IMG/VR virus record: IMGVR_UViG_3300031659_000075
Coordinates: 1-26,438 of that record
Reading direction: 5' to 3' (one strand)
DNA: 26,438 bases
DNA from: a virus
Notes under the pieces: model-generated
Databases searched by the model: none
What the model was told of the DNA's origin: nothing
What the model saw: only the letters and a program-made list of their open reading frames with translations
Part shown: one piece after another, positions 2,705 to 26,438 of the stretch
How the letters are laid out: every line of letters starts with the position of its first letter
Numbering within the stretch: the stretch's first letter is position 1
Translations under genes and position numbers: made by a program

Positions 2705-2733
2705 CAAAAAGACACACGATGTTAGTGATTAGT

Positions 2734-3945
2734 ATGTCGGATGAGTTAATGGAAAAGGCGAAGATAATAGCGGAGGCCACTGGCCGAACTATTGCTGATG
2801 TTCTTGATGATTTAGGTGACGATGGTATACTCAATGAGTCCAATAAGTCCGAGAAAGACTTAATCACTCAACTGAAAGAAGCGGCTGAACTAATATCCAC
2901 CGTTCAACAAATCAATAATGAGGTCGCTGAGAACAGTGTCCTCAATGGTGGGGACAACAAGACAGAAGTTACTGTTGAGACTACACTAGAAGGTGACATT
3001 GTTGACAGGGCAATTGAATCGGTTAATAGAAAGGTACAGAACATTAAGAAAATAGTACTTGTAGTCCTCCCTATATTCCTTATCCTCACAGGAGGGACAC
3101 TGGAAGGCATGGGTCTTGTTAATATGCTCGGTGATGATGAATCACCCCCTACCAAAGAGTACAATAATGATTATGGTGGTTGTCTTAACCCCGATGCTGA
3201 TAACTACACCCCCGAAGCCTCATGGGATGATGGCTCATGTCACTGGGAAGAACACAAAGAGGAACAGTGTATAGGCGACCTATCCGCCGTTGAATCAAAG
3301 GCTGAAATCTATGATGGTAACAACATTGAGGTACATATGACTATTGCCAATAATAACCAATGTGATACTGAAATAGAACTGATGATTTCATTTTACTATG
3401 AGAACGGTTATCAATTCTCGCTTGAGAATAATGACTTCCCGACATACTGGATTATAGGTGGCGAGACAACACTAACAATACGACATGACTCCTTCAACAA
3501 CTTAGGTGACGGCAACTACTCTCTTGAGACACGCTTTTTCCCTATGGGACAAAGTGAGGAATGCTGTATAATGACCGACTCGGTATGGGTGGACACTGAG
3601 CCCGAACCCGAACCATCATGTAACGGTACTGCATCTTTCTATGCTGTAATGTATGAGTGGGAGAATGAAACCAATGATACTATTAATTTGAGAGTGACAT
3701 GGGATGCTGACTGGTCTTGTGATGAAGTACAGGAAATAGAGATTGATTTACAACTGCTTGATAATAACTCAAGCGCGATATACACTAATACCTTTAATTA
3801 CGGAACAGATGGTATAGCGGCGGATAATAGGTATCTTCTAATAACTAATATCAGTAAACCAACTGACGGATTCAAACTGGGTATGAACATATGGGTCAAT
3901 GTGAACGGCTGGCGTAACGATGCCAGTTGGTCGGAAGAATTGTAA
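2734..3945 (+). CDS. Membrane-anchored Cys-containing protein between portal and protease, unknown function
   Basis: I do not recognise a function. The frame is open from an ATG at 2719, but GTGATT followed by AGT and ATG at 2734 has the same layout as the capsid genes' start sites, so I start here (403 aa). Residues 1-100 are helical and charged with coiled-coil character. Residues about 106-131 (IVLVVLPIFLILTGG) form one membrane helix. Residues 149-169 carry GC-NPDADNY-EASWDDGSC, a short Asp-rich Cys-bounded motif of a type common in secreted proteins of marine microbes. Two beta-rich domains follow, separated by a TEPEPEPSC linker, with further Cys residues. The topology suggests a cytoplasmic helix and an external two-domain part. 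Placement inside the head operon is unusual. It could be a virion membrane or ejection protein, a host-surface modifier, or an accessory 'moron' gene. Confidence 0.8.
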   Translation: MSDELMEKAKIIAEATGRTIADVLDDLGDDGILNESNKSEKDLITQLKEAAELISTVQQINNEVAENSVLNGGDNKTEVTVETTLEGDIVDRAIESVNRKVQNIKKIVLVVLPIFLILTGGTLEGMGLVNMLGDDESPPTKEYNNDYGGCLNPDADNYTPEASWDDGSCHWEEHKEEQCIGDLSAVESKAEIYDGNNIEVHMTIANNNQCDTEIELMISFYYENGYQFSLENNDFPTYWIIGGETTLTIRHDSFNNLGDGNYSLETRFFPMGQSEECCIMTDSVWVDTEPEPEPSCNGTASFYAVMYEWENETNDTINLRVTWDADWSCDEVQEIEIDLQLLDNNSSAIYTNTFNYGTDGIAADNRYLLITNISKPTDGFKLGMNIWVNVNGWRNDASWSEEL

Positions 3946-3979
3946 ACATTGAAAAGACAAACTGTATGTGCTATACATT

Positions 3980-5158
3980 ATGTGTTCCTGTAATCAAGCC
4001 ACTGATGCTGATTTAGTTGAAGAAACTAAAAAATGCAATTGTGGCGACAAACAATGCCCTATTGGCGAAGAATTAATCGCTGGGGAATGTAAAAGAGTAG
4101 CAGTTACCTGTGAAATTGAAATTGATTCAGTTGAAGTTAGAATTGAAGCATCCACTGGATTGAGTATCGTTAGGATTAGCGGTATAGCATTCCATGATGG
4201 TGTAAATAAGAACTCATGGGGTATTAGACCGGAACTAGCAGCATCCATATCACACGATATGATAGGTGCTGATGTCACATTGAATCATCCCGAAGCGGAG
4301 ATGGGTCGCTTTACTCGCAACATGGATGGCGGAGTCAACGAGGCTACCGTCGGTGTAGTTACCGAAGCATCCTATACTGCAAGTGAAACTGGATATGAAG
4401 TTAGATATGTAGCCGAAGTCCACAGGCACGAATTATTCCAAGCCCTTGAATCCGGTCTTTGGATGCGCCCTAACTATGGTGTGTCAATTGGCGGAACAGG
4501 TGTACCGAGTGAAATTATTGAATCCGAAGAAGGTGGAAGACCTACTATGTGGTTTGCTGATGAGTTTGAATTAGACCATCTTGCTATTGTTCACAGGCCG
4601 GCGTATGAAAATGCTAACATAGAAACCGCTGAAAGGGTTGAAGCCAATGAAACTATTAAGTATCAAACCGAAAGTAACGATAACTACCCGAAGGTGAGTA
4701 CGATGACTGACGAAACTAATGAATCAACAATTGCATCCGATGAATTGGAAGCACTACAAGCGACAATTGTTCTAAGAGAAGCAAAGATAGCGGAATACGA
4801 AGCAGCACAAGATGCTCGCGACGAAACAGACCGACTTGCATTGGTTAACAAAGCAAGCGACTTGGGACTTAAGAACCACGAATCCTTTTCAGCAGAAACC
4901 TTGAAGACAGTAATTTCTTCATGGGAATCTTCTCGCCCAGCAGTTGCTGAGGTTGAGATGAGCCCAGCAGTGCCAGCAACAAGCGCACCAGTTGAGGCAA
5001 CAGAATCTAACGAACCAGTAGTAGCAAACTACTTAAACGGCTCAATCGTTGAGTCCTCCGAATCCCTCTATGCAAGAGCCTACAACAGTTGGGCAAAGGC
5101 TTACAACAGTGTTTACTCCGGTGAACATACTGCTAAATTGTATGAGGATTTAAACTAA
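3980..5158 (+). CDS. Prohead maturation protease with C-terminal scaffold region
   Basis: This protease cleaves scaffold and capsid during head maturation. Residues about 50-215 fit the U35/S78-type caudovirus prohead protease fold: VRISGIAFHDGVN, then NSWGI, the probable catalytic His103 in TLNHPEAEMG, the probable catalytic Ser169 in YGVSIGGTG, and ELDHLAIVHRPAY closing the domain. These residues are inferred from family pattern. Residues about 245-392 look like a scaffold: a Glu/Ala/Lys coiled-coil (about 253-290), a Pro/Ala-rich linker, and an amphipathic tail. An in-frame internal start at 4703 probably makes this part separately. The N-terminus is odd, because residues 2-44 hold eight cysteines (CSC, CNCGDKQC, GEC, TC), suggesting a small metal-binding or disulphide knuckle. 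A GTG at 3968 is an alternative start. Neither start has a convincing ribosome-binding site, so the N-terminus is uncertain. Confidence 0.85.
   Translation: MCSCNQATDADLVEETKKCNCGDKQCPIGEELIAGECKRVAVTCEIEIDSVEVRIEASTGLSIVRISGIAFHDGVNKNSWGIRPELAASISHDMIGADVTLNHPEAEMGRFTRNMDGGVNEATVGVVTEASYTASETGYEVRYVAEVHRHELFQALESGLWMRPNYGVSIGGTGVPSEIIESEEGGRPTMWFADEFELDHLAIVHRPAYENANIETAERVEANETIKYQTESNDNYPKVSTMTDETNESTIASDELEALQATIVLREAKIAEYEAAQDARDETDRLALVNKASDLGLKNHESFSAETLKTVISSWESSRPAVAEVEMSPAVPATSAPVEATESNEPVVANYLNGSIVESSESLYARAYNSWAKAYNSVYSGEHTAKLYEDLN
4691..4697 (+). promoter_or_regulatory. Internal ribosome-binding site for scaffold
   Basis: AAGGTGA sits inside the protease gene, exactly five bases before an in-frame ATG at 4703. 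The same AGGTGA-N5-start geometry precedes the decoration, capsid, hub and 10597 genes. This makes a real internal start more likely than chance, although I cannot show that ribosomes use it. Confidence 0.6.
4703..5158 (+). CDS. Nested scaffold protein (internal in-frame start)
   Basis: This is a probable free scaffolding protein of 151 residues translated from within the protease gene in the same frame. It starts MTDETNESTIASDELEAL and comprises the coiled-coil (LREAKIAEYEAAQDAR), a Pro/Ala/Glu-rich linker, and a C-terminal amphipathic segment (YARAYNSWAKAYNSVY) that could bind the capsid protein. The arrangement parallels phage lambda, where Nu3 scaffold is made from an internal start in the C protease gene. 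Evidence is the ideal ribosome-binding site at 4691-4697, the abrupt change from protease fold to scaffold-like sequence at this point, and the absence of any other scaffold gene between portal and capsid. It lies just upstream of the decoration and capsid genes. Confidence 0.65.
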   Translation: MTDETNESTIASDELEALQATIVLREAKIAEYEAAQDARDETDRLALVNKASDLGLKNHESFSAETLKTVISSWESSRPAVAEVEMSPAVPATSAPVEATESNEPVVANYLNGSIVESSESLYARAYNSWAKAYNSVYSGEHTAKLYEDLN

Positions 5159-5176
5159 ATAGGTGATTATTATGGC
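5157..5176 (+). repeat. RBS cassette, copy 1 (before decoration gene)
   Basis: The 20 bases AAATAGGTGATTATTATGGC are identical to those at 5601-5620. They cover the ribosome-binding site AGGTGAT, a TATT spacer and the start codon plus the next two bases. The repeat also decides the start: an in-frame GTG within it (5163) is part of the ribosome-binding site, not the first codon. Confidence 0.8.
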
Positions 5177-5576
5177 AAGCAATTTTACAAACGAACCAAT
5201 TAGCATGAATGTACTCGCAACTGAAACCCTTTCAATGGGACAGTTGTGCCGAATTGGTGCTGGCAATACAATGTCAGCATCCGCACCAGCATCAGTCGCT
5301 TTCTTCGTCACAGTTGACGAATCAAGCCGAGACGCAGCAGGCACACTAGAAGTACTAGGTGCAACAGTATCAGTAGTCCCAATGAGCGGAGTTGTCTTTA
5401 TTCAATGCGCTGATTCGGCACTTGATATTGGCGAACTAGTATACGCAACCGCTGCTGGACAATGTACAGCAACCGCTGCATCAAACAAACTCGTTGGAGT
5501 CTCTATCGGTCTTCACACTGGCTTAACTGCTGGTGATTTAGTTGCAATCAATGTCACACAGGCGGCGGTTGCTTAA
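5172..5576 (+). CDS. Capsid decoration (cement) protein, DUF2190-like
   Basis: This small (134 aa) head protein probably binds the outer surface of the capsid shell and stabilises it after expansion. The sequence is almost entirely beta-prone with Ala, Val and Ser: SMGQLCRIGAG near the start, FVTVDESSRDAAGTLEVLG in the middle, ELVYATAAGQCTAT, then KLVGVSIGLHTGLTAGDLVAINV at the end. Alternation of 'aG..v......g....GV..G....GdlV.i' is the pattern of DUF2190-type decoration proteins. Position between protease/scaffold and the major capsid gene is the usual place. It shares a 20-base translation-start cassette with the capsid gene, which suggests matched high expression. The start ATG is at 5172. 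The family assignment rests on pattern and position, so a different small head protein is possible. Confidence 0.7.
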   Translation: MASNFTNEPISMNVLATETLSMGQLCRIGAGNTMSASAPASVAFFVTVDESSRDAAGTLEVLGATVSVVPMSGVVFIQCADSALDIGELVYATAAGQCTATAASNKLVGVSIGLHTGLTAGDLVAINVTQAAVA

Positions 5577-5600: not shown

Positions 5601-5620
5601 AAATAGGTGATTATTATGGC
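5601..5620 (+). repeat. RBS cassette, copy 2 (before major capsid gene)
   Basis: Second copy of AAATAGGTGATTATTATGGC, an exact match to 5157-5176, preceded by an A-run. It ends two bases into the second codon of the capsid gene. A close relative without the AAATA lead-in (AGGGTGATTATTATGGG) precedes the gene at 11098. Confidence 0.8.
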
Positions 5621-6527
5621 TAACAAAACATTAGAACAAATCTTGAATGTATCAGCGGCAACCGGCCCATTTGGCAAAGGTGACGCAGTATTAGAACAAA
5701 CACTTCGTGACTTTATCCAGTTGCAATCCACTACTATCGCGGTAGGAACACAAATTGTCGGTGTTAGAACTGTCAGTTGGTTGTCCTTCACATGGTATAC
5801 TGGTGCTGAGGGTTCTTTCACATACCCATTAGATGACAACGCAGTTGTTGACCCGACCAAAATCGGAACCAAGAACTACTCAGTCAAGTTGGAAAAGGGA
5901 CAAGGCCGATGTGTCTTCCTAGACTCAACACTACTTCGTGGCGAAACATGGGAAAACATGAACCGCCAACAAATGGCCATCATTCAAGGTCGTGCTGACC
6001 TTATTGACAACCATATTCTTTCAAAGTTGATTGGTGGTGCAGGGCAAACTCTTGCAGCAACAGCAGTTTGGGGCGCAGGCTCAGCAGATGAAGAAAAGGA
6101 TATACTTGACGGAATGGATTTGATTTTCGCTAACGCAAGAGTTACAGGAAACGAACCTCTAGCATTAGTCCTTCCAGCAAGCGCTCGTTCTCAAATGATG
6201 AACACTCGTCTATACACTAACATTCTTCAATCCCTCCAAGAGAGACTGAACACAATGATTAGCCTTGAAGTATTCTATACTCGCGACTATGACACAGGTA
6301 AAGCACTAGGCAAGGATGCACTTCTTTTGATTAAGGGCGCACAAACTGCTGAGTTCTTCTCCTACAACGGTGACGGATTCCAAGAGACTGAACTAACTCG
6401 TATTGAGGGTGTCGGTTTCTCATGGCTTCTAACCTCCTACATGGGCAGTGTTATTCACGAACTAGACGACGGCGCAGCAGCAGGCAAGAACAACCGCATT
6501 GTTAAGTTGACCGGCGTAATTGCTTGA
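5616..6527 (+). CDS. Major capsid protein, HK97 fold
   Basis: This protein builds the icosahedral shell. It has 303 residues from ATG 5616, within the normal range for an HK97-fold protein without a large delta domain. The N-terminal region (TLEQILNVSAATGPFGKGD) is followed by the extended E-loop/spine region (SWLSFTWYTGAEGSFTYP) and a charged spine helix ending in DNHILSKLIGGAG. The P-domain and A-domain carry ALVLPASARSQMM and DALLLIKGAQTAEFF. The C-terminal part, RIEGVGFSWLLTSYMGSVIHE, is the usual closing strand and helix. Location downstream of protease and decoration genes and upstream of the connectors supports the call. The strong identical start cassette fits the most abundant virion protein. 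I cannot place a protease cleavage site with confidence. Confidence 0.88.
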   Translation: MANKTLEQILNVSAATGPFGKGDAVLEQTLRDFIQLQSTTIAVGTQIVGVRTVSWLSFTWYTGAEGSFTYPLDDNAVVDPTKIGTKNYSVKLEKGQGRCVFLDSTLLRGETWENMNRQQMAIIQGRADLIDNHILSKLIGGAGQTLAATAVWGAGSADEEKDILDGMDLIFANARVTGNEPLALVLPASARSQMMNTRLYTNILQSLQERLNTMISLEVFYTRDYDTGKALGKDALLLIKGAQTAEFFSYNGDGFQETELTRIEGVGFSWLLTSYMGSVIHELDDGAAAGKNNRIVKLTGVIA

Positions 6528-10430: not shown

Positions 10431-10595
10431 ATGAGAAAAGGAAAAATAGTTTATACCCCGCCCGAAAGATGTTATACTAATGTGAACATTGAAAAGACAG
10501 AACATGGGTATGCCGTTTATAGGGTAGGCGAAGACAAGCCGTTTTCATTCATCCCTATTTCAGCAGTAAAGCAAATTGAATACAAAGGTGAGTAA
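10431..10595 (+). CDS. Small soluble protein (54 aa), unknown function
   Basis: The start is the ATG at 10431, with AAGGAGATGG directly upstream (a strong ribosome-binding site lying inside the end of the preceding gene). The product begins MRKGKIVYTPPERCYTN, continues with NIEKTEHGYAVYRVGED, and ends FSFIPISAVKQIEYKGE. It is beta-prone, with no signal or membrane segment. The Gly-Tyr-Ala-Val-Tyr core and the final IP-AVKQIEY strand suggest a small barrel or hook-like fold, but I do not recognise a family. The next start codon is one base after its stop. Confidence 0.6.
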   Translation: MRKGKIVYTPPERCYTNVNIEKTEHGYAVYRVGEDKPFSFIPISAVKQIEYKGE

Positions 10596-10596
10596 T

Positions 10597-10878
10597 ATGG
10601 ATATTGATATGATAATGATTTATGCCGCGATTGGGGCAGGTGTTTGCTTAAGTGCATACAAAGTATACAAGAAAGTTATGGCTGATGGTAAAGTTAGTCT
10701 TAATGAAATAATAGATTTGGTTGAGGACTTAGGGGATATTGCTAAGACCTTGCCTTCAAGCAACAAACTAAAGCAAATGAAAAAGGCTGAACTAATCGCA
10801 CTGTGTGAAGAGAACGACCTTGACATTGATGGAGTTAAGGCTGATTTACTTTCTCGTTTAGATACTCTTAGGGCGTGA
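10597..10878 (+). CDS. Membrane-anchored protein with C-terminal SAP-like domain
   Basis: The product has 93 residues from ATG 10597, which has the AAGGTGA-N5-ATG layout. Residues about 5-25 (MIMIYAAIGAGVCLSAYKVY) form a hydrophobic N-terminal anchor. Residues 35-50 (SLNEIIDLVEDLGDIA) form an acidic amphipathic helix. Residues about 60-93 (MKKAELIALCEENDLDIDG, then VKADLLSRLDTL) closely resemble a SAP/HeH helix-loop-helix, a fold often used to bind nucleic acid. Hydrophobic anchor plus SAP-like tail could tether viral DNA or a virion part to the membrane. It is one of four compact genes between the fibre and the second connector, and may act together with the XhlA-like product of the next gene. 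Confidence 0.65.
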   Translation: MDIDMIMIYAAIGAGVCLSAYKVYKKVMADGKVSLNEIIDLVEDLGDIAKTLPSSNKLKQMKKAELIALCEENDLDIDGVKADLLSRLDTLRA

Positions 10879-25300: not shown

Positions 25301-26121
25301 CCTCACCATTACCTCCGGCTGGTGGCGGTGTCAGCACAGGTGGTCGCAGTGGTGGACTGCCAGTAGGTGGTGCTTGGAGTGGTACTAGTAGTGCTGCATT
25401 TAAGAAGGCTCAAGCCAATCAACTGAATCCTAATTTCAATCCAAATAGAGTCGGTGGTAATCCCGATAATATGATGCCATCCGATAGCAGTAATTTCAAC
25501 ATTGGTTCGTCATCCATTAATCAACTGATGAGTAATCGTATCAAGGGAGTTATGGATTTCAATAATGATAGTATGTTAGGTGGTGGATTTAGTGTTCTCG
25601 GACAGTCTAAGCCTGCTGCCGCACCACGAAATAATGATGGTATTGAAGGGCTTGATTCTTTCATATCACCTTCTTCGGGTGATGCTATCATGGGTGAGGA
25701 AGGTATGGTATTCGCAGGTTCTGTTGATGGTGCGGCTTCTCACTGTGCTTTTACTATCACTGCTCGTATACCACCTAATGTTAGCAGCAATTCAATTAGA
25801 ATATCAAGTCGTGTTACAATGGCAGCGTCAGTCGGTAATGGTGTGATATACACCACAGTTGAAGTAGTTGGGACAGGTGTTCAATATGAACAAAGTACAA
25901 CAGTGAGTAGCACAGATAATTCAGTGGTGCTTTTTACTGGGGCTGTTGATGGTGCTGATGTTAGCAGCAATACTCTAAAGATAACTATTGAGAGAGAAGC
26001 AGGTGCTTCGCCCGACACTGCTCAGTATGGGTCGGTAACATTGAATAACATATCTGTTGCATCGGACACCCGTTCAGTATCGGGACAATCCGAATCAAGT
26101 TCTTTCTCCTACTCGGAATGA
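19327..26121 (+). CDS. Giant tail-tip / baseplate hub protein (2264 aa), multidomain
   Basis: This gene follows the tape measure and probably forms most of the tail tip: hub, distal tail and host-contact domains in one chain. The GTG at 19327 has AGGTGA-N5 upstream; the in-frame GTG at 19318 lies within that site. Residues 79-144 carry the small beta module (LLLVDATGFPASGSATIDGD, LIGVTGLNTWH). Residues about 315-480 are lectin-like beta-sandwich. Residues about 490-600 resemble a hub domain (MSLTLIDDDAKLKLL, RPIWRGSLTSLSY). Residues near 1205 and 1440 hold HDLQAGNIITIEG and PHGLVDGDIVTII modules. Residues about 1600-1660 resemble the second hub half (IEALAVAKQEYEKAKLAPLS). The Gly/Ser-rich linker at about 1979-2015 leads to a C-terminal domain with a degenerate internal repeat. 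No enzyme motif is seen. Confidence 0.75.
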   Translation: MRTVDKRFTFWMTGYYDDFIGARALPDDSNTPITEWKSSSTHHGNPINGWATLNPRYTYAWCERGTSVPTIQYLASNYSWTNGDYSPTTTYLLLVDATGFPASGSATIDGDTFSWTSVNLGANKLIGVTGLNTWHKRGDGVKILTRFNNAALTMANMFNHNLGIHEWLTYDANRRQAGEYEGTAQLQFPDSHTNANRQKYDGGTGILGEPYTTTDPVEGYLLFGYAHNSVSRYYAAIGNNDSTFGRAPSYSPNYNAGSDALEPEAGIPTGVSAPITSVNTHLAGVYSGEVLYNDVLTNGSPKAFLHPIQSPSGKPFLVTEVYHTPATYTPVLSFDGSLNSKGDGDVFTIRIHCAAVDVAAARIKLQIGCEGTAMTSTVAGETGYSNSAITLVITPSAFLEATTWNPPTLDSIWDDYDFVIDYTAYTYDLYKNGVTVLSGAALAIKTDGTPFTPADMYGWEIDAIECDKKAVVLIDRVSLMRPLTDHPDGSDMPVATSFNNTSGINKSSNMSLTLIDDDAKLKLLAFFNKSSYADWDLLMFRDNTNRPIWRGSLTSLSYAQDANSRTPTIVLSATDYFGNLDHQIPNWELGESGDADSTKAVAYNRSEAQNNLNTYYFGVNALTTANATLGYNEVENNAFIPHSDSRMRNRSAHPIQMYTGEDSIGPNTPYTDWDSAITAGYATSDADNRVLHSRWMEDIKESLWFKHQFGNIASATQTTTLVNDFTVGDASITVHDNLNWLGNAPITWASEGVIELVDNDGQVDSGVYSAVGTPSTISGVKCQWFYEVEDGQGNATGEWFPMLLIPNASVVTATMNNKIVTIRNVYFLGTSARMQPFVGQHKLQVTTLHHNGYTYCYLASAITGYRPRYSTDPAVGTFAPLTTTAGSGHNPFSSWPSIVRFIATVNSAAFTFMDYGGTALTLPSTNFFQRDHIAGTTVNLRTISDDYKHIWVLWADMRNDGGANADSSYRRKKFGIMSPYSNSYQLSLVYADQQDEEGNNQGFVDLALGEDVEMWEMDATAEPITGGAWSALTGGSNTEALSKYHNWEDKAGSFIILDASKFFNLNTYANGGRTGQASGGRKEVGDYLVETEGFPVLIDNYWVRAPTGPYNLDESGGWNTNYKYLNNKSTQLKNKINAGDKIMQVTGDVIILPTSGGVVGQIISREKEKIFHYYTDTEIIPSTGLVFQNHVASTGLVRITTQAASQPVHDLQAGNIITIEGSATTPDLDGTWEIEYMYGSAVVIDSGSTTGIAATTTTPAAIISAPYSFKIKALRDLGEKHPTTSVAGQWDGRGYGAGANNADYLMRNGTLSGASSVTIDINPDNTGSYKDALVYSSLANVFPMRLLMQVNGFFENEGSVTHNESDKIRVTWLDALTSNWLVQTSLYGMPDLASTPLTGDMTTSSKSVTEPVRGGYLANTTISTGSSVTIITGDASRVTTPHGLVDGDIVTIIENSQLSGGSNDKYRTDYAISNSLPTQFDIVKSGATATNSDGFWRRAGTVDTFGSITDCRSSSLLGIFTAVQAGSGISSEYSVRSVFSWLMGRDSRPELRPTYGNGMVFNRDNLTISNLSTESAAQVSNVRLFYAGGVSYVDYPSASLGSRPRWEIIEVPSITNKIEALAVAKQEYEKAKLAPLSLSASVTRFSNGNAYNGLGDAMLYNARYGYIADQSRTIPRSYSLFTGPAYVEDKAWAWNSMWGGNLFSGMQNALDGRDGGATYVAGAVTHDTNYFWYGANSIANALQVVHIPQGMPKTSEKTAGVGRINADGNLRVVIAIDEGVDNNTSYDNMRFRIYLLDYDWSDYDFTSTLASHSTITVDSNGYYEIPIPSTYWTGTSAERMVVSVNYDYLKSLARQRCGSGNINWNANDIDGITSFSSYNSDSIFPLGCRKFTKADYWDLRAEWYAPRLHITDDVNFVPATTLKYTDASLELDNEDMSIRSISWGISGRAVESLSLGLERDVSRAAKTFRSYILPAAGRDGGTGSGTGGGSSTSPLPPAGGGVSTGGRSGGLPVGGAWSGTSSAAFKKAQANQLNPNFNPNRVGGNPDNMMPSDSSNFNIGSSSINQLMSNRIKGVMDFNNDSMLGGGFSVLGQSKPAAAPRNNDGIEGLDSFISPSSGDAIMGEEGMVFAGSVDGAASHCAFTITARIPPNVSSNSIRISSRVTMAASVGNGVIYTTVEVVGTGVQYEQSTTVSSTDNSVVLFTGAVDGADVSSNTLKITIEREAGASPDTAQYGSVTLNNISVASDTRSVSGQSESSSFSYSE

Positions 26122-26438
26122 GTAGGGTAGTGTTCACGCAGGGCTAGTATAGCCTTAGCCTTGACTCTCCCTATGCCCTCAATGTTCATCAGCATACGCT
26201 GACTAGTCCTTGACCGTAGTATGCGTGGTAACGAGCCGTATTCAGTGAGTAGGTCATGTGCTATTTTCTCAGTAATCCCCTCAATACTACATAGTGTCTT
26301 TAGTCGGGGGTCAATATCGCGATTGCTTTTTACTGCAAGTTCCTTTGGTGGTGCGGTAGGTAGTTTCCTTATCCTCAAATTGTGATGGACAGCAGCCAAC
26401 CAATCAACCATTTCATCCATTGATGATACTTCCATGTA
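26109..26438 (-). CDS. XPF/Hef-family (ERCC4-type) nuclease, C-terminal part with helix-hairpin-helix pair (truncated by window edge)
   Basis: The frame is open to the right edge (first visible codon TAC), so the N-terminus lies outside. What is seen is 109 residues ending at a TAG (26109-26111 on the complement). The first part, MDEMVDWLAAVHHNLRI, fits the last helix of an ERCC4 nuclease domain. It is followed by a Pro-rich linker and two helix-hairpin-helix motifs, LCSIEGITEKIAHDLLTEYG and LMNIEGIGRVKAKAILALRE, arranged as in the DNA-binding tail of archaeal XPF/Hef. Such enzymes cut flap and fork structures during replication or repair. It is transcribed toward the hub gene and overlaps its end by 13 bases, so it belongs to a different, probably early, operon. 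The catalytic motif (ERK-x3-D) is not in the window. Confidence 0.75.
   Translation of the reverse strand, partial: YMEVSSMDEMVDWLAAVHHNLRIRKLPTAPPKELAVKSNRDIDPRLKTLCSIEGITEKIAHDLLTEYGSLPRILRSRTSQRMLMNIEGIGRVKAKAILALREHYPTHSE

Follow-up and report, generated by a model that had tools for sequence, protein, structure and literature searches.

Does one open reading frame (ORF) in the late region of this virus encode two proteins, a protease and, from a start codon inside the same frame, a scaffold? The window, i.e., the whole stretch of DNA analysed, is a 26.4 kb virus contig of 26,438 nt (IMG/VR IMGVR_UViG_3300031659_000075). Its late genes run from terminase and portal through an ORF with a membrane-like segment, the protease-scaffold ORF, cement and major capsid protein to head-completion and tail genes. 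The portal protein (1271-2704, + strand) was recognized by PF04860 with an E value of 4.5e-5 and the cement or decoration protein (5172-5576, + strand) by Phage_cement, PF22758, with an E value of 3e-4, both below the curated cut-off. The ORF in question covers positions 3968-5158 of the + strand and yields a long product of 396 aa from GTG 3968; ATG 3980 is an alternative start. Neither the protease nor the nested region of the window could be assigned to a named family by profile searches of Pfam, PHROGs and PDB sequences. The succession portal, protease-scaffold, cement and capsid is kept in those relatives whose contigs reach far enough, the cement gene being undetected in a few.

The ORF between portal and protease (2719-3945) has a membrane-like segment and also the motif GGCLNPDADNYTPEASWDDGSC; similar stretches are seen in 10 related loci. 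It occupies the place of a long N-terminal extension of the protease of relatives, which the window protease lacks. In one relative (L082) a tRNA-Ala (TGC) gene, at 4909-4980, lies between the portal and protease genes.

The internal start site

The original prediction placed AAGGTGA five bases ahead of an in-frame ATG, and so it is found in the letters. The internal Shine-Dalgarno (SD) sequence AAGGTGA at 4691-4697 (+ strand) was read directly and is backed by the duplex energies and the codon and recoding statistics given below. It is followed by the spacer GTACG (4698-4702) and by ATG (4703-4705), in frame with the ORF 3968-5158. The nested methionine is residue 246 if counted from GTG 3968, 242 from ATG 3980 and 241 in our working numbering from 3983, which is used here. 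The + strand of the window contains two copies of AAGGTGA-N5-ATG (4691 and 10585), as compared to 0.07 expected from first-order Markov simulation. Its spacing was also claimed to equal that of the strongest starts of the genome. Indeed, the cement (5172) and capsid (5616) genes open with GGTGA-N5-ATG, and the nested site therefore resembles the strongest normal starts of the window. The candidate starts of the protease itself, GTG 3968 and ATG 3980, have no Shine-Dalgarno sequence (duplex energies -0.7 and -1.5 kcal/mol, respectively). The second AAGGTGA-N5-ATG, at 10585 with the start AAGGTGAGTAATATG, opens the gene of a SAP-domain protein (10597-10878).

The protease domain and its linker

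In the AlphaFold2 model of the long product, made with an alignment of 42 sequences (mean pLDDT 75), the residues up to about 226 form a folded domain. Residues 56-226 (4148-4660, + strand) are predicted to be a protease domain with the fold of T4 gp21 and herpesvirus assemblin. VIA-align superimposed residues 55-226 on T4 gp21 (5jbl) with Z 11.5 and an rmsd of 2.5 Å over 128 aligned residues, and on the herpesvirus assemblins 4v08 and 1vzv with Z 10.3 and 10.2, respectively. Foldseek against the PDB gave no match at E<=0.001 for the protease model; the fold was seen by VIA-align on the same candidates. Against viral models Foldseek yielded 123 matches at E<=0.001. Among the 50 matches listed are several prohead or head-maturation proteases, and one listed model, from an uncultured archaeal virus, is named as an XkdF-like protease (in the spelling XfdF). 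It is on VIA-align and on these viral prohead-protease models that the probable gp21/assemblin fold is based.

At the sequence level, the window protease had no significant profile match in Pfam or PHROGs; PHROG profiles of head maturation proteases weakly matched 4, 2 and 1 of the 42 members of the alignment, with a best E value of 1.9e-4. Searches of a collection of genome contigs disclosed no relative (0 of 50 candidates confirmed), and a phage collection contained no match for the protease or the capsid protein. H102 and S168, the latter in YGVSIGG, are invariant in the 42 sequences and are the putative catalytic histidine and serine.

The domain is followed by a disordered, poorly conserved linker (4649-4720, + strand), which holds the internal start. 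pLDDT is below 50 for residues 223-247, and the mean frequency of the top residue is 0.43 in residues 223-240 versus 0.71 in the protease domain. A long helix begins at residue 247. In the model, the site thus lies where it had been predicted, at the boundary between protease and coiled coil.

The nested product and the scaffold question

The nested ORF (4703-5158, + strand), which begins with an invariant methionine, encodes a protein of 151 aa, 16.4 kDa and pI 4.3. Its predicted structure starts with a helix of 47 residues (247-293; 4721-4861, + strand), likely a coiled coil. A conserved helix of residues 304-317 (TVISSWE; 4892-4933, + strand), a second low-confidence stretch (328-342) and a conserved C-terminal hairpin-helix of residues 346-377 (PVVANYLNG..SLYARAYNSWAKAYN; 5018-5113, + strand) follow; the last is a candidate capsid-binding module. 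Judged from its start signal, the short product is predicted to be made independently of the long one.

None of our profile searches linked the nested region to a sequence or family named as scaffold. That it is a scaffold we therefore infer from its position, its helical build, the exclusion of other candidates and the precedent of lambda, Mu and herpesviruses. One other candidate is the capsid protein itself (303 residues, 5616-6527, + strand). Its structure model (pLDDT 66) has the HK97 fold. Residues 27-303 align with residues 121-383 of gp5 in HK97 Prohead II (3e8k, Z 11.9), which implies that the N-terminal delta domain of about 100 residues is absent. The prediction had also stated that no separate scaffold gene is seen. 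This is true for the genes examined between portal and capsid: none of those compared resembles a separate scaffold.

Stand-alone scaffolds were also looked for in relatives, with the scaffold part alone as query. The best 80 of 320 confirmed loci were kept, and 36 of these, 28 of them new, were examined; no stand-alone scaffold gene was seen in the 36. In all 28 new loci the ORF also contains protease sequence, and an ATG with an SD ahead of it marks the start of the scaffold. A single open frame spans the protease and scaffold parts in these 28 loci and in the 82 sequences of the first alignment described below.

Our favoured reading is that the gene very probably encodes a protease-scaffold fusion together with an independently initiated scaffold, as in lambda and Mu. 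Translation from the first start would yield the fusion; separate initiation at the internal AAGGTGA-N5-ATG would give the scaffold of 151 residues by itself. If lambda and Mu are a guide, many short and few long copies would co-assemble via their shared helix and C-terminal module. The assembled forms would attach to the capsid protein, give the procapsid its shape and bring the protease inside, and the enclosed protease would then digest the scaffold. That both products are made, in what proportion, and that the short one acts as scaffold and is digested are supposed here from those analogies.

One may object that the start is used but that the short product is a minor partner, which tunes packaging or dimerisation of the protease and is not the bulk scaffold. 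The silence of the profiles on a scaffold agrees with this view, yet we consider it unlikely: a scaffold domain is missing from the capsid protein, the window genes compared from portal to capsid include no other scaffold, the short product is modelled as helical and includes a conserved C-terminal module, and both its position and the gene order fit the known modules of protease, scaffold, decoration and capsid genes. Alternatively, the scaffold might be translated from a transcript of its own, starting at an internal promoter as in herpesvirus UL26/UL26.5, with the Shine-Dalgarno sequence serving that transcript. The protein plan and the protease fold are indeed those of herpesviruses. We regard this route as distinctly improbable, and since the Shine-Dalgarno sequence would serve either transcript, the nested product stands in both cases.

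Conservation in related viruses

An initial search had found the internal site in 13 of 13 relatives. A profile search of IMG/VR, from which the best 80 of 257 confirmed related stretches were kept, extended the alignment to 82 sequences including the window, and the nested ATG is present at the homologous column in all 82. A second search, for divergent members, gave 76 loci; removal of 27 copies of the first set and of 5 identical sequences left 44. In 41 of these the ATG lies at the same column, and in the remaining 3 (L138, L140, L161) one or two codons later. Conservation in related genomes, the point on which the prediction asked to be checked, is thereby established: the ATG occurs in 126 of 126 distinct sequences, 3 of them shifted by 1-2 codons, and no related virus without the site was met among these 126 distinct aligned loci. 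Nor was a locus without it found among the 28 further ones from the scaffold-only query, where the best-scoring ATG near the start of the match was taken; the energies at those ATGs are thus biased by this choice and do not enter the statistics.

The duplex energies were calculated with the common 16S tail as anti-SD sequence, which may differ from that of the host, and average -8.16 kcal/mol at the site. Elsewhere in these genes the means are -2.56 kcal/mol over 29,662 codon positions and -2.63 kcal/mol over 846 in-frame ATGs. The duplex reaches -5 kcal/mol or less in 125 of 126 sites and -6 or less in 118, the weakest being -4.6; the 8 sites above -6 kcal/mol must be called weak, and 12.7% of 45,856 control positions also reach -6. 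The aligned spacing between SD and ATG is narrowly distributed, being 4 in 106, 3 in 16 and 6 in 4 of the 126 sequences, as compared to -3 to 14 at strong control sites. Accessibility is 0.54 at the site versus 0.43 in sampled controls (53 representatives). Energy, spacing and recoding figures for the 126 sequences include the three shifted sites, which an earlier energy calculation for the second set left out. Duplicates were detected by a string test, and near-identical copies remain; the statistics were therefore also computed for representatives.

Constraint on nucleotides versus protein

Conserved letters in a gene may of course be conserved for the sake of the protein. Here, the protein is variable: 60 different tetrapeptides directly precede the nested methionine in the 126 sequences. 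The entropy of columns 222-240 is mostly 1.5-3 bits, that of Val238 is 0.95 and that of Met241 is zero. The codons are restricted. Val238 is GTG in 67 of 69 rows with valine, versus 352 of 2613 valine codons gene-wide, and Lys237 is AAG in 49 of 49, versus 837 of 1561 lysine codons. In 6 of the 126 sequences the core GGTGA or GGAG is even found in another codon phase. When the upstream residues were recoded synonymously with each gene's own codons, the duplex averaged -2.8 to -3.0 kcal/mol versus the observed -7.8 to -7.9. The Fisher p value against such recoding is 1.9e-45 for 72 representatives at 90% identity, 1.7e-23 for 41 at 75% and 3.7e-13 for 18 at 60%. For single sequences p is above 0.05 in 26 of the 72 representatives, in part because peptides such as K-G-E force AGG(N)GA (L050, L071, L082). 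Residue 2 of the nested product is Thr in 58, Ser in 19 and Ala in 2 of 82 sequences, as is usual at a start. The start signal thus resides in the nucleotides and not in the protein; it is deeply conserved and lies at the domain boundary.

These findings bear on two further explanations. AGGTGA might act as an SD-like pause or coding signal that helps the protease to fold before the coiled coil emerges, the methionine being incidental. Its place exactly at the domain boundary would suit that function, but pausing needs no ATG, and this codon is invariant in 82 of 82 sequences within a linker of otherwise variable columns; moreover, the register between SD and ATG is nearly fixed while the SD sequence and the encoded residues vary. 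We therefore hold this explanation to be very improbable. That the stretch is kept for a protein reason, e.g., as the release cleavage site of the protease itself, which a protease-scaffold fusion requires as in herpesviruses and for which the commonest sequence K-V-x-x-M-T might be taken, is extremely improbable in view of the 60 tetrapeptides and the constrained codons.

Comparison with known systems

Nesting of a scaffold in a protease gene is already known from lambda, Mu and Mu-like phages. The overlap of C and Nu3 in lambda was reportedly described by Shaw and Murialdo in 1980, a paper cited in PMC8508860. As in that phage, the scaffold would here be the in-frame C-terminal part of the protease gene, made from an internal start. 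The equivalence that the prediction drew to C/Nu3 therefore survives for the expression plan, but lambda gpC is a ClpP/S49-type protease, whereas the best solved matches here are T4 gp21 and herpesvirus assemblin. No ClpP-type protease stands among the matches listed, which is no argument against such a relationship. Also, the host of lambda is bacterial and the present one probably archaeal.

T4 gp21 (5jbl) is the closest solved protease structure. In T4, however, protease gp21 and main scaffold gp22 are encoded by separate genes; here protease and putative scaffold share one. The herpesvirus scaffold exists also without protease, UL26.5 being made from a separate transcript. The gene described here resembles UL26/UL26.5 in having the same protease fold followed by a scaffold in frame, and it differs in that a Shine-Dalgarno sequence marks a second translation start. 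The C-terminal ends of scaffold and protease of herpesviruses bind the capsid protein (PMC8539031).

In-frame scaffold starts with a plausible SD inside the protease gene are described for Mu I/Z and the Mu-like phages PaMx73 (PMC4378225) and KS10 (PMC2628397), and the scaffold of KS10 is given as 148 aa (PMC2628397). Mu I/Z and the Mu-like phages are thus similar in the nested start with SD and in scaffold size (151 aa here). Their hosts are bacterial, in contrast to the probable host here, and conservation is here documented over 126 distinct loci and at the codon level. In HK97 a delta domain of 102 residues, part of the capsid protein, serves as the scaffold (PMC8508860); the present capsid protein shares the fold of gp5 (3e8k, Z 11.9) but not this domain.

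A search of titles and abstracts in the open-licence literature found no scaffold nested in the protease gene of an archaeal virus, which is weak as a negative. Three things are new: how deeply the plan is conserved in a marine virus group not placed in a named family, its pairing with a protease of the gp21/assemblin type, and the fact that accessory domains are kept off the short form. The overlap of protease and scaffold known from lambda and Mu is thereby extended to a widespread group of marine viruses, probably of archaea, in which a herpesvirus/T4-type protease is combined with lambda-type translation. This suggests that archaeal tailed viruses assemble their procapsids in the same way as phages and herpesviruses. 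As a practical consequence, automated gene prediction will overlook the scaffold in these viruses, because it has no ORF of its own.

Accessory domains on the long form

In some relatives the long form carries additional domains, DUF5824-like and others. In most loci they are found ahead of the protease, in a subclade precisely between protease and nested start. The DUF5824-like domain corresponds to PF19141, with E values of about 1e-5 in the two loci scanned. Nine loci (L200, L201, L202, L208-L211, L224, L233) have it inserted after the protease and before the nested start, which still lies at the scaffold boundary. Out of 136 DUF5824-like matches, 117 precede the protease, 9 are situated between it and the nested start, and 10 belong to ORFs that have no protease motif; the matches were classed against this motif, the nine were placed before the nested start by inspection of the loci, and the loci overlap and are not independent. 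Since the insertions are upstream of the nested start, they become part of the long form and leave the short product unextended. The two-start gene could possibly serve as a low-copy cargo loader too, by which rare accessory domains are shipped into the procapsid on the long form. As the extra domains are only on this form, the internal start would spare the bulk scaffold while the cargo enters the procapsid. We offer this idea tentatively and rather doubt it. The window itself has no DUF5824-like domain, nor the N-terminal extension of its relatives. The DUF5824-like domain is basic; it changes its place around the protease and is confined to the long form and to separate ORFs.

The probable host

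The host is likely an archaeon, perhaps one of the Poseidoniales, as judged from gene content. Archaeal-type replication genes were found in relatives; the 26 kb window has only a Hef-like helix-hairpin-helix (HHH) fragment. A related contig (G002) encodes a B-family DNA polymerase and an ERCC4-HHH protein, and its clamp loader scores best as RFC small subunit, with 136 bits, below the curated cut-off. Of 21 related contigs, 19 have a clamp loader. Weak similarity links the terminase to 8 records, 6 of which are from haloarchaeal PhiCh1 or phiH, and the best row for the polymerase is Halorubrum tailed virus 27, with cyanophages next.

Viruses of Marine Group II and Magrovirales are similar in their marine tailed-virus genes and B-family polymerase and, for some relatives of the window, in a group I chaperonin. 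The latter is reported for clades 2-4 of the Marine Group II viruses (PMC5332604). Magrovirales genomes measure 90-110 kb (PMC12999244), as compared to related contigs here listed at up to about 74 kb, which may be partial.

Two minor observations concern the same contigs. Chaperonin genes occur in 5 of 19 related contigs, including L083 (1489-3009, - strand), and the one checked is of the GroEL type (group I), in spite of the archaeal look of these viruses. The Hef-like fragment of the window (26109-26438, - strand) is a helix-hairpin-helix C-terminus that runs off the contig end.
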